Below, piece by piece: positions 25,932-33,332 of a stretch of DNA of 34,079 bases (positions are counted from its first letter, which is position 1; each line of letters opens with the position of its first letter). The notes beneath the pieces were generated by a model. The model was not told the DNA's origin, did not search any database, and was given only the letters and a program-made list of their open reading frames with translations. This DNA comes from a virus. A program made the position numbers and the translations under genes. The stretch spans positions 1-34,079 of IMG/VR virus record IMGVR_UViG_3300022602_000264; one strand, given 5' to 3'.

Positions 25932-26074
25932 CAATCAGTGTCCCAGTTGATGTTTGCCTCTTCGAGCGCGATCTCATCCCAGATCTCGCGATTGATCTCG
26001 TCACTGTAAATTTCCCAGCCGACGACGTCATCGACGTCGGGCACGGGATTAGTGAAATCGAAGACGATGGTCAT
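25931..26074 (-). CDS. 47-aa acidic protein ahead of terS
   Basis: A short gene of 47 codons. The protein begins MTIVFDFTNPVPDVDDVVGW and continues EIYSDEINREIWDEIALEEA, ending NINWDTD. It is strongly acidic and has no Cys. The ATG overlaps the stop of the GapR-like gene as ATGA, with GGAG about 9 bases upstream, and its own stop overlaps terS as TGATG. Both overlaps and the lack of any alternative gene there support it. Function unknown. Confidence 0.75.
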   Translation of the reverse strand: MTIVFDFTNPVPDVDDVVGWEIYSDEINREIWDEIALEEANINWDTD

Positions 26075-26349
26075 AACTTGATCTCCACAGTGTCTGCGAA
26101 CTTGCCCAAGGGCGTCTCCTCGAAGCCCTCGACGGCGCTCATGTACAGGTCGAAGATGGTCTGGTTCTGCTCACGCTGGTGTTGGGGCTTCTTGCGCTCG
26201 GCGACGACCTTCTTGAGGATCTTGACGTCGTATCCGTTGCCCTTAGCCTCCTTGTAAATCTCTGATATGTCGAGCGAAATGGCTGTCTTCTCGTCTTCCA
26301 TTTTCTCGATGCGCTGGACGATGCTGGCGATCTGGTTATTGCTAATCAT
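26071..26349 (-). CDS. GapR-like DNA-binding protein (DUF2312)
   Basis: A 92-residue protein with the DUF2312/GapR pattern: IASIVQRIEKMEDEKTAISL followed by DISEIYKEAKGNGYDVKIL and KKVVAERKK, then a second helix with IFDLYMSAVEG. The '[IL]..RIE..E.EK......I...Y.EAKGNG.D.K.L.K....RK' run is very characteristic. GapR is an alphaproteobacterial protein that grips overtwisted DNA near replication forks. Here it heads the packaging operon, suggesting a phage-borne copy acting on phage DNA topology or on regulation. GAGGGGAACTAGTC precedes the ATG. Confidence 0.88.
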   Translation of the reverse strand: MISNNQIASIVQRIEKMEDEKTAISLDISEIYKEAKGNGYDVKILKKVVAERKKPQHQREQNQTIFDLYMSAVEGFEETPLGKFADTVEIKL

Positions 26350-26461: not shown

Positions 26462-26540
26462 AAGTTATCCACAGGGATCCAACGCTATAGACAGGCGAAA
26501 TTTCTTCGCCTATAAGAGGGACATGGTTGCTTCTAACCAC
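26462..26540 (+). promoter_or_regulatory. Promoter module P1 (DnaA box, operator, 5' stem-loop)
   Basis: A perfect DnaA box TTATCCACA lies at 26465-26473. The -35 TAGACA (26488-26493) and -10 TATAAG (26511-26516) are 17 bases apart. The spacer is exactly the palindrome GGCGAAATTTCTTCGCC (6-5-6). At the predicted transcript start, TGGTT (26524-26528) and AACCA (26535-26539) form a 5-bp stem with a 6-base loop. Unlike P2 and P3 there is no upstream second copy of the palindrome. It drives the two genes starting at 26553 and 26780. Confidence 0.75.
26465..26473 (+). promoter_or_regulatory. DnaA box 1
   Basis: TTATCCACA, identical to the strong consensus box. It begins 23 bases before the -35 of P1 and follows an AT-rich stretch (26447-26464). 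Confidence 0.7.
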
Positions 26541-26552
26541 ATGGAGATTGAC

Positions 26553-26753
26553 ATGACCGACCTGACCGCCGCCCGCGCCGCCTTCGAAGTTGCCAGCCTG
26601 AACTTCACCGACGGTTTCGATTACGATCAGCGCGCTGCTTACGAAGCCGCCCGTGACGACCTCTACGCCGCTGAATGCTACGCCGAGCGCGAAGCCACTG
26701 AGGCCGCCGAGATCGCCGCCGACAAGAAATTCTGGAAGAACCGCGCTTTTTAA
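26553..26753 (+). CDS. Small early acidic helical protein
   Basis: A 66-residue protein starting MTDLTAARAAFEVASLNFTD and ending FWKNRAF. It is Ala-rich, acidic and helical (DQRAAYEAARDDLYAAECYA, EREATEAAEIAADKKF). The start is the second ATG of ATGGAGATTGACATG: GGAG lies 6 bases before it, and the first ATG has no ribosome site of its own. It is the first gene behind P1. Codon use is like its neighbours. No family recognised. Confidence 0.75.
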   Translation: MTDLTAARAAFEVASLNFTDGFDYDQRAAYEAARDDLYAAECYAEREATEAAEIAADKKFWKNRAF

Positions 26754-26779
26754 TTAACCCCAACCGAATGGAGATTGAT

Positions 26780-27043
26780 ATGATCAAGCAAGTTAAGACC
26801 AAGCAAGCGGGCATCCTCGGCATCATGCGCAGGGCCCCCTTCGTGACGGGATTCAAGGAGGCCCAGACAGGCAAGCCCCTGCGTTATGACGCCTATGAGC
26901 ACGACATCAATGGCCAGTGGGACTATGAGCGCGGGCGCCTGCTGGGCCTGATGTTTGACGGCCCCCTAAAGGTGGGAAAGGCCGTCAATCGTGGCGCTGC
27001 AGTGCAGCTCGCGCGCGCCTTCCAGCAAAAAGAGATCCTGTAA
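26780..27043 (+). CDS. Small early basic phage protein
   Basis: An 87-residue protein, MIKQVKTKQAGILGIMRRAP at the start. The middle YDAYEHDINGQWDYERGRLL resembles the 'W.YERGR.....' motif of many small phage proteins of unknown role. The end is a helix (VNRGAAVQLARAFQQKEIL). The start is the second ATG of the ATGGAGATTGATATG cassette. It follows the 66-aa gene by 26 bases with no hairpin between, so both share the P1 transcript. Confidence 0.75.
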   Translation: MIKQVKTKQAGILGIMRRAPFVTGFKEAQTGKPLRYDAYEHDINGQWDYERGRLLGLMFDGPLKVGKAVNRGAAVQLARAFQQKEIL

Positions 27044-27048
27044 AAAAG

Positions 27049-27057
27049 TTATCCACA
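27049..27057 (+). promoter_or_regulatory. DnaA box 2
   Basis: TTATCCACA, a perfect consensus box five bases after the stop codon at 27043 and 25 bases before the -35 of P2. Confidence 0.7.
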
Positions 27058-27080
27058 GGGTGCGAAAATGCTTCGCACCC
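27058..27080 (+). terminator. Hairpin with operator core upstream of P2
   Basis: A perfect 9-bp stem with a 5-base loop, starting 15 bases after the stop of the 87-aa gene. The following CTCTTTAC is only a weak U-run. It can act as a partial terminator for P1 transcripts and, because its core GCGAAAATGCTTCGC matches the spacer operator, as an upstream operator. Confidence 0.5.
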
Positions 27081-27153
27081 TCTTTACATGCGAAATTTAT
27101 TCGTGCTAAGGTTCAATCACGGTCGCTGATGACCGCAGTCTCTGGAGCCCACC

Positions 27154-27429
27154 ATGTCCTTCGCCCCCTACTACAACACCGCCGACATGACCCAGCCCCG
27201 CCTGCTTGGGCAGTTCGATGTCGGCAGCATCTGCTTCGAGTTCAGCGCCCGTCCCGAGGATGATCGTGGCGGCGCCTTCCCCGGCTATCCCCACCGGATC
27301 TTCACCCTCGACGGGGATCGCTCCGCCTTGGTCCTCAAGACCGTCGCCTACGTTGTGATTGACGAGCGCGAGGATGGATCGCCGATTCACGAGAAGTGGG
27401 AAATCAAGCGCCACAAGGCCTACGCCTAA
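27154..27429 (+). CDS. Small early protein of unknown function
   Basis: A 91-residue protein, MSFAPYYNTADMTQPRLLGQ then FDVGSICFEFSARPEDD. A strand-rich core (HRIFTLDGDRSALVLKTVAY, VVIDEREDG) suggests a small beta-fold. The Shine-Dalgarno TGGAG lies 6 bases before the ATG; unlike most of its neighbours it lacks the ATGGAGATTGACATG cassette. First gene behind P2. No family recognised. Confidence 0.75.
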   Translation: MSFAPYYNTADMTQPRLLGQFDVGSICFEFSARPEDDRGGAFPGYPHRIFTLDGDRSALVLKTVAYVVIDEREDGSPIHEKWEIKRHKAYA

Positions 27430-27433
27430 AAAC

Positions 27434-27449
27434 GGGGGCTCCGGCCCCT
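27434..27449 (+). other. Intercistronic GC hairpin 1
   Basis: GGGGC / GCCCC stem with a TCCG loop (plus a G-T pair outside), 4 bases after the stop of the 91-aa gene and before the next start cassette. No T-run follows. A very similar hairpin occurs at 28172-28187. Likely an RNA-processing or stability element. Confidence 0.5.
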
Positions 27450-27475
27450 CCCACCCCAATTCAATGGAGATTGAC

Positions 27476-27754
27476 ATGAAATTCCGCTTTTACACCCTCG
27501 GCGACACCCTCCCCTCCCTCGCCTTCACCGCCACCGGCGTCGATCTGTATGACCACATGTGCGAGGCCATCGTGGACCACGTCCTCGGCGCCGACCCTTA
27601 CTCCGAGGCTGCGGCCCGCGACCTCATGGAGATCGTAGCGATGGAGACCCCTGACGAGGCCGAGTACATCGAGGCCGTGTTCGTACAGGGAACGCTTGTC
27701 GGCTCAATGGACGCCCCATTCGCCCTCGACCCCAGTGAGTATGTAAAAATTTAA
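27476..27754 (+). CDS. Small early acidic protein
   Basis: A 92-residue acidic protein, MKFRFYTLGDTLPSLAFTAT then GVDLYDHMCEAIVDHVLGAD, a helical middle with DLMEIVAMETPDEAEYIEAV, and the end DAPFALDPSEYVKI. Two clusters of acidic residues surround the middle helix. The start is the second ATG of the ATGGAGATTGACATG cassette. It shares the P2 transcript with the 91-aa gene. Its stop codon is followed within a few bases by DnaA box 3. No family recognised. Confidence 0.75.
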   Translation: MKFRFYTLGDTLPSLAFTATGVDLYDHMCEAIVDHVLGADPYSEAAARDLMEIVAMETPDEAEYIEAVFVQGTLVGSMDAPFALDPSEYVKI

Positions 27755-27755
27755 G

Positions 27756-27764
27756 TTATTCACA
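27756..27764 (+). promoter_or_regulatory. DnaA box 3
   Basis: TTATTCACA fits the TTATNCACA consensus. It overlaps the last three bases of the box with the start of the P3 hairpin, so DnaA binding and hairpin or operator use may exclude each other. Confidence 0.6.
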
Positions 27765-27790
27765 GGGTGCGAAAATCCTTCGCACCCTGT
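27762..27790 (+). terminator. Hairpin with operator core upstream of P3
   Basis: A perfect 12-bp stem and 5-base loop that starts 8 bases after the stop at 27754. It is followed by TGACAG rather than a T-run, so termination would be weak; the core GCGAAAATCCTTCGC matches the spacer operator. Confidence 0.5.
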
Positions 27791-27863
27791 TGACAGGCGA
27801 AAATGTTTCGCAGTAAGATCAAACCACGGTCGAGATAGAGACCGCAACCTGATGGAGATTGAT

Positions 27864-28163
27864 ATGACCGCTTCCAACACCGTCGCCGCCGTCGAAGTTT
27901 ACCTCGCCGCCAAGGCGCAGTCCGACGCCGCCGAGACCGTCCTCAAGGCCGCCAAGGCGGACGTCGTCGCCATCGTGGGCGGCTACGGCTTCCTCGAGGG
28001 CGAGACAGCCGACCTTGACGTCGCCGTTCAGTCCCGGGCCTCGATCAACGAAAAGCTCCTGCTCCAGTTTCTGACGCAGGAACAGATCGACGCCTGCAAG
28101 GTCGAGGGCGCCGCCTTCCCGGTCGTGCGCATCAAGGCCAAGAAGGTCCGTAAGGCGGCCTGA
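27864..28163 (+). CDS. Conserved small phage protein, helical plus basic tail
   Basis: A 99-residue protein, MTASNTVAAVEVYLAAKAQS at the start. An Ala/Lys-rich helix (DAAETVLKAAKADVVAIVGG) leads to EGETADLDVAVQSRASINEK, then LLLQFLTQEQIDACKVEG and the basic end RIKAKKVRKAA. The 'L.AAK.[ED]V.A.....G...G......V....R.S......L......E....C...G....V..K' plan recurs in phage early regions and is of unknown function. The start is the second ATG of the ATGGAGATTGATATG cassette, first gene behind P3. Confidence 0.75.
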   Translation: MTASNTVAAVEVYLAAKAQSDAAETVLKAAKADVVAIVGGYGFLEGETADLDVAVQSRASINEKLLLQFLTQEQIDACKVEGAAFPVVRIKAKKVRKAA

Positions 28164-28171
28164 TCATCAAC

Positions 28172-28187
28172 GGGGGCCTCGGCCCCC
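28172..28187 (+). other. Intercistronic GC hairpin 2
   Basis: GGGGGC / GCCCCC stem with a CTCG loop, 8 bases after the stop of the 99-aa gene and 14 before the next start cassette. No T-run. It shares sequence with the hairpin at 27434-27449 (both begin AACGGGGGC). Confidence 0.5.
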
Positions 28188-28213
28188 ACCACCTCACGCT
28201 AATGGAGATCGAC

Positions 28214-28396
28214 ATGCTCAAGTTCATTATCGCCTACCGCAAGAACCCCTCAGACCTGAATGCTCTCAAGCTCATGCGCTACGTCAAGAAACACCCGATG
28301 GGCGTCTGCATGCTCTGCCTCGAAGAGATCTCCATTCTCGAACAGGCTCGGGCGCAACTTGCCCCGCACGCCGAGATGCTGAAGGAGTTCGTGTGA
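28214..28396 (+). CDS. Small early helical protein
   Basis: A 60-residue protein starting MLKFIIAYRKNPSDLNALKL, with MRYVKKHPMGVCMLCLEEIS including a C-x-x-C pair, and a helical end (ILEQARAQLAPHAEMLKEFV). The start is the second ATG of ATGGAGATCGACATG. Its stop overlaps the next ATG as TGATG. The lone CxxC is unlikely to make a metal site unless it pairs with another chain. No family recognised. Confidence 0.72.
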   Translation: MLKFIIAYRKNPSDLNALKLMRYVKKHPMGVCMLCLEEISILEQARAQLAPHAEMLKEFV

Positions 28397-32828: not shown

Positions 32829-33072
32829 CGACACCCTCCCCTTCCGTATATTCGACCTCAACCGTCAAACGCGCAGCAGGCTTCTGAACTCGAAAGTTTG
32901 CCCAATAGTCTGCCGCCTTCTTGATCGTGAACGCCTCAACATAAACGTCATCCTTGCCTATGTTGATGTAGATGGTCTTCTTGACGCGCTTAGGTTGGGT
33001 CTTTGAAAATCCGCTCATCGTAGGTTCCTTATGACCATTACGAGTGCGGTATTTTTTGTTGATGTCAATCAT
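32821..33072 (-). CDS. Small basic protein with MIDINKKYRTR start
   Basis: An 83-residue protein, MIDINKKYRTRNGHKEPTMS. The first 13 residues look like the start of a common phage 'KKYRTRDG' family, but the remainder (KKTIYINIGKDDVYVEAFTI, KPAARLTVEVEYTEG) is different, so it may be a fused or truncated member. GGAGCGTGTC precedes the ATG, which overlaps the upstream stop as ATGA. Confidence 0.68.
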   Translation of the reverse strand: MIDINKKYRTRNGHKEPTMSGFSKTQPKRVKKTIYINIGKDDVYVEAFTIKKAADYWANFRVQKPAARLTVEVEYTEGEGVDD

Positions 33073-33332
33073 GACACGCTCCTGAATACGTTATCCCATT
33101 GTTCTGAGCGATCTTCGTACATGTCATCGAACAACCTTTGCAGGCCCGGCTCAAATAGTTTGCGATAATCAACAAGCGTTAACCTCCTGAAACCGGGAGG
33201 GGGAGGTGGAAGATCAACCGCAACAAACGACTTCACCGGCATCAGACTGCTTGCCCTCACCACCGCTGGCGCGGCGACAAGACCCATGAGGCCGGTAAGG
33301 AACTTACGGCGTGGCATGATGATGTCAGTCAT
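33069..33332 (-). CDS. Second protein with a Tat-signal-like N-terminus
   Basis: An 87-residue protein MTDIIMPRRKFLTGLMGLVA, then APAVVRASSLMPVKSFVAVD. Residues 6-30 carry PRRKFLTG plus a hydrophobic run and an A-x-A-like end, as in the 162-aa protein (both continue [SN]LMP[VI]K). The body after a Pro5 run is short and charged (DYRKLFEPGLQRLFDDMYED). GGGAGATTTCCC precedes the ATG. Function unknown. Confidence 0.7.
   Translation of the reverse strand: MTDIIMPRRKFLTGLMGLVAAPAVVRASSLMPVKSFVAVDLPPPPPGFRRLTLVDYRKLFEPGLQRLFDDMYEDRSEQWDNVFRSVS

Follow-up and report, generated by a model that had tools for sequence, protein, structure and literature searches.

Consensus DnaA boxes at the early promoters of a phage family as candidate activator sites for a DnaA-type protein

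Why would the early promoters of a phage be led by binding words for DnaA, the replication initiator of bacteria? The question is raised by three promoters (P1, P2 and P3) of the virus record IMGVR_UViG_3300022602_000264, which was analyzed over its entire length (34,079 bases; hereafter, the window). The late genes (terminase, portal, capsid and tail fibre) lie on the minus strand up to about 25.9 kb of the window, and an array of small genes runs on the plus strand from 26.5 kb. Based on the gene size, the direction and the presence of a helix-turn-helix gene, this array is predicted to contain the early genes. No Rfam family or tRNA was detected in the window. Divergent from P1, we observed a GapR-like DNA-binding gene (26071-26349, minus strand; PF10073; E = 4.2e-24) that is kept in 28 related loci. 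Given the distribution of GapR, this gene would point to an alphaproteobacterial host; two Opitutae MAG contigs (possibly misbinned) are among the closest TerL matches in genome assemblies.

DnaA boxes and promoter modules of the window

All three 9-mers match the DnaA-box pattern TTATNCACA. Their positions 14, 25 and 25 bases upstream of the -35 elements of P1, P2 and P3 (starting at 26488, 27083 and 27790) are as described by an earlier sequence-only reading, which had also noted that the boxes of P2 and P3 nearly touch the preceding stop codons; these stops end at 27043 and 27754, leaving 5 bases to the box in P2 and 1 base in P3 (Table 1). Scanning both strands of the record for TTATNCACA yielded exactly three matches, all on the plus strand and every one at P1-P3, relative to a mean of 0.41 expected from dinucleotide shuffles (three or more matches in 0 of 100 shuffles). 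The same reading had argued that chance alone should not place three such words at equivalent sites. Within the window this argument fails, because the modules are copies and the three placements are not independent: P2 and P3 present 81% identity across 80 nt, and P1 and P2 have an exact 19-nt repeat in common (AAAAAAGTTATCCACAGGG).

Table 1. Predicted promoter elements and early genes of the window
Feature	Position	Strand	Remark
DnaA box of P1, TTATCCACA	26465-26473	+	ends 14 bases before -35
DnaA box of P2, TTATCCACA	27049-27057	+	ends 25 bases before -35
DnaA box of P3, TTATTCACA	27756-27764	+	ends 25 bases before -35
-35 of P1, TAGACA	26488-26493	+	weak
-35 of P2, TTTACA	27083-27088	+	weak
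-35 of P3, TTGACA	27790-27795	+	-10 TAAGAT at 27814-27819
P1 spacer palindrome, GGCGAAATTTCTTCGCC	26494-26510	+	between -35 and -10
P2 spacer palindrome	27089-27105	+	
P3 spacer palindrome	27796-27812	+	
P2 inverted repeat, between box and -35	27057-27081	+	10-bp stem, -16.5 kcal/mol
P3 inverted repeat, between box and -35	27764-27788	+	10-bp stem, -17.1 kcal/mol
P1 leader hairpin, GGTT/AACC	26523-26539	+	expected transcript start
P2 leader hairpin, GGTC/GACC	27120-27135	+	
P3 leader hairpin, GGTC/GACC	27827-27844	+	
First early ORF, 66 aa	26553-26753	+	no family match
Early ORF, 87 aa	26780-27043	+	conserved in 23 related loci
Early ORF after P2, 91 aa	27154-27429	+	
Early ORF after P2, 92 aa	27476-27754	+	conserved in 23 related loci
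Early ORF after P3, 99 aa	27864-28163	+	conserved in 33 related loci
Helix-turn-helix protein, 73 aa	28599-28820	+	weak matches to Cro/repressor; conserved in 32 related loci

The box is accompanied by further elements in each module. The palindrome in the spacer of P1 is likely an operator or a loading site for a second protein, and the 73-aa helix-turn-helix protein is possibly the one that binds the spacer palindrome. The inverted repeat between the box and the -35 of P2 is a candidate terminator of the preceding gene or a candidate second copy of an operator. A tight pattern of the full module found no match within the window. Separately, a start-site motif (ATGGAGATTGAYATG) is repeated before several of the early genes (26530-28222).

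Conservation of the box and strength of the -35 element in relatives

Relatives were collected using a pattern composed of the box, the gap and the spacer motif (32 viral stretches) and using a terminase search; the module pattern without the box, when used as a sequence search, retrieved only four stretches. The loci of these relatives were scanned with a signature blind to the box, defined by the -35 and the spacer palindrome only. Across the phage family, this signature identified 64 distinct promoters, most of which are preceded by an exact box, part of the underlying loci having been fetched with the box pattern. Among the loci obtained through TerL only, 31 distinct signatures were found: 18 with a forward exact box, two with a reversed box, one with a box containing one mismatch and 10 without box, one of the latter (L284) being a stray bacterial match. 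The two reversed boxes (L137 and L127) retain CCTGTGGATAA. The box is absent from some promoters of the family.

The complete relative G001 (61,712 bp, with a 99-nt terminal repeat) contains five matches to TTATNCACA, four of which are located at early promoters and one within the PrimPol gene; the pattern read backwards has zero matches in this genome. The word TTATCCACA inside the PrimPol gene (L309, 3666-3674) is conserved and also present in other relatives.

The other elements of the module were also compared across relatives. A hairpin with GGTC/GACC, GGTT/AACC or GGTT/GACC is found at the expected transcript start of 60 of the 64 family promoters at a near-fixed distance, and only the fourth pair of this hairpin is informative because GGT and ACC were already set in the search pattern. 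More distant relatives retain the spacer palindrome in varied form and have no box, an indication that the palindrome is older than the box in the module and that the box was added in this lineage.

The distance separating the box from the -35 varies in the family: 14 bp (26 promoters), 18 bp, 25 bp and 28-35 bp. We observed that the promoters with a box at most 18 bp from the -35 almost all present TTTACA or TAGACA (26 of 27) with a single occurrence of TTGACA, whereas TTGACA is found in 12 of the 17 promoters without a forward box and in 10 of the 19 promoters with a gap of at least 25 bp. Fisher tests returned P = 3e-6 for close boxes relative to no forward box and P = 2e-4 for a second comparison of the -35 elements, both values being nominal since related sequences were treated as independent. 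A weak -35 next to a close box and a TTGACA in the absence of a box is the pattern expected of dependence on an activator, and the modules of the window show the arrangement of DnaA-activated promoters, i.e., a box upstream of a weak core kept as a pair, with P3 and its TTGACA as an exception. Several observations stand against the boxes being activator sites: some promoters of the family are devoid of box, P3 combines a box with TTGACA, and helical phasing between the box and the -35 does not hold, as the gaps (7, 14, 18, 25, 28-32 and 35) and the reversed boxes do not place the two elements on one face. In addition, the correlation with the -35 may come from shared descent, most of the modules with a gap of 14 bp standing first in the array.

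The conservation of the box in relatives and its association with weakened promoters suggest that the phage probably switches on its early genes through DnaA or through a DnaA-like protein of its own. The sequence-only reading had proposed that early transcription is linked to DnaA and, through it, to the replication state of the host. The link to a DnaA-type protein has gained ground: the box is conserved while it moves and flips, it accompanies weak -35 elements and a gene encoding domain IV of DnaA is found in relatives. That early expression would be tied to the replication state of the host is possible. More specifically, we see about equal chances for and against the boxes being upstream activator sites of the early promoters, where a DnaA-type domain IV protein would help sigma-70 RNA polymerase to use a weak -35. 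Host DnaA would most likely read the box at entry, since only host proteins are present then, and the domain IV protein of the phage would later join host DnaA, take over from it or displace it on the same boxes. The spacer palindrome would be a site distinct from the box and would be bound by another protein, possibly the helix-turn-helix protein of 73 aa. We infer each of these steps (binding to the box, activation, identity of the reader and timing) from sequence comparisons.

Candidate readers and alternative roles of the box

Several relatives encode a stand-alone DnaA domain IV (PF08299), which was detected in G001 (33041-33238; E = 3.5e-18) and in G007, G012, G015, G016, G008, G009, G010 and other relatives, while the AAA+ part of DnaA (PF00308) was not found in any of 11 phage records examined. 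The recognition helix is mostly intact in these proteins: the RDHTTV signature is retained in most members, matching the helix of E. coli DnaA (RDHTTVLHA). The AlphaFold model of the G001 protein (mean pLDDT of 73, near 90 in the domain region) superimposes on E. coli DnaA domain IV bound to a DnaA box (1j1v) with an rmsd of 1.2 over 77 columns.

These proteins open the alternative that the box is read mainly by a domain IV protein of the phage itself, acting as an activator or repressor similar to GafY, and that host DnaA is not involved. The intact recognition helix favors this explanation, as does the co-occurrence of the domain IV gene with boxes at early promoters in six genomes (G001, G007, G012, G015, G016 and G009), and there is a precedent in Caulobacter, where a domain IV protein activates phage-like genes (PMC9632790, PMC11150451). 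However, the gene is also found in the box-free G010 and G029, and the recognition helix has diverged (RCHTAC) in the box-bearing G015; with boxes next to a diverged helix in G015 and the gene without boxes in G010, gene and boxes do not form a simple pair. The gene is located approximately 18 kb away, adjoining a lytic transglycosylase-like gene, and the protein is therefore probably not made first. Judging from the gene order shared with G001, the window record would end before the place of this gene. In addition, a domain IV gene was found in only one of 36 records of other phages with box-led promoters among the matches listed, and phages outside the family that carry the domain IV gene present no excess of boxes (two boxes relative to four control words). 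We regard a reading mainly by the phage protein, without host DnaA, as rather unlikely.

Three further alternatives were considered. Firstly, the boxes could be decoys that titrate host DnaA off the chromosome origin, as many phage copies with three or four boxes each could hold much DnaA; this is highly improbable, since only few boxes are present per genome, and their placement at promoters and the weak -35 elements would be left unexplained. Secondly, the duplication of P2 and P3 and the repeat common to P1 and P2 would fit a box word that is a functionless passenger of module duplication and recombination. This is very unlikely too: the word persists although the DNA separating the box from the -35 varies in sequence and length, and L137 and L127 have retained it in reversed orientation. 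Finally, although DnaA boxes are elements of replication origins, the dispersed origin also proposed by the sequence-only reading is unsupported and the least probable explanation of all, because the window contains lone boxes 584 and 707 bp apart rather than a cluster of strong and weaker boxes, the boxes of relatives are placed at promoters, the GC-skew minimum of G001 (confounded by the coding strand) is near 30 kb and away from the early region, and the phage encodes its own PrimPol/helicase.

Comparison with known systems and with other viruses

DnaA is known both to activate and to repress transcription, and it activates nrdAB by stabilising the polymerase (PMC8203912). The host genes regulated by DnaA (nrdAB, dnaA and the cell-cycle genes of Caulobacter; PMC8203912) use the same 9-mer as the phage boxes, but the phage early promoters add a spacer palindrome and a leader hairpin. 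The closest likeness is to GafY (earlier HdaB), a domain IV homologue that contacts RpoD and activates the promoters of the Caulobacter gene transfer agent (PMC9632790, PMC11150451). GafY acts together with GafZ, which has as its site a palindrome located between the -35 and the -10 (PMC9632790, PMC11150451), and the GafY-activated promoter has a poor -35, a better -35 rendering it independent of GafYZ (PMC11150451). As in that system, a domain IV homologue would act from an upstream site on a sigma-70 promoter whose -35 is poor, relatives of the window phage encode such a protein on the element itself and the window modules carry a palindrome between the -35 and the -10. In contrast, the GafY site of Caulobacter contains ACTATG and is located at about -123 to -113 with an IHF site between, whereas the phage box, by inspection, has the consensus DnaA-box sequence and is separated from the -35 by 14-35 bp. 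Because both the word and the distance differ, we do not assign the phage to the GafY/GafZ system.

Phage lambda offers a second comparison: its DnaA boxes lie downstream of pR, whereas in the window phage several promoters are each preceded by a single consensus box. The likeness to lambda pR and ori-lambda resides in the stimulation of phage transcription by host DnaA, as cited in PMC8203912. Stand-alone phage domain IV proteins are also represented by PHROG 27829 (DnaA-like replication initiation protein), which matches L479; this group is named for replication, while the domain IV gene is found here in phages with boxes at promoters. Our search of the open-licence literature retrieved no description of phage early promoters that are led by DnaA boxes.

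We further searched viral contigs for the box followed by a consensus promoter (TTATCCACA-N6-36-TTGACA-N17-TATAAT). At least 120 stretches were found, relative to 35 for a control with the box reversed. Among the matches listed, and with near-duplicates removed, the gap was 8-11 bp in 40 of 97 stretches (3 of 21 for the control), an enrichment with a binomial P = 4e-12 relative to a flat spread for a gap range chosen after the counts were seen. The box-led pattern and its control were both absent from 398 Pseudomonadota genomes, and this comparison says little because both counts are zero. The viral contigs with boxes clustering 8-11 bp before consensus promoters (L317-L435) are unrelated to the phage family. 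Two other unrelated records were also observed: a 132.9-kb record (L471; G020, 95-105 kb) presents DnaA boxes in repeated groups of three at promoters as well as one group of five, and an 89.4-kb record (L472 and L473; G019) presents five box-led TTGACA promoters with gaps of 9-10 bp.

We tentatively raise the possibility, which we hold to be less than probable, that box-led promoters are a general device by which many unrelated phages read host DnaA, with the box placed 8-11 bp upstream of strong sigma-70 promoters, and that this family would have added a domain IV protein of its own that competes with host DnaA or replaces it on the same boxes. The promoters described here provide a cis-element that can be tested and a candidate protein of the phage, together with relatives that form a natural series with and without boxes. 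If the boxes do act in this manner, phages would sense or exploit the replication initiator of their host directly at their first promoters, and infection would be tied to the host cell cycle.
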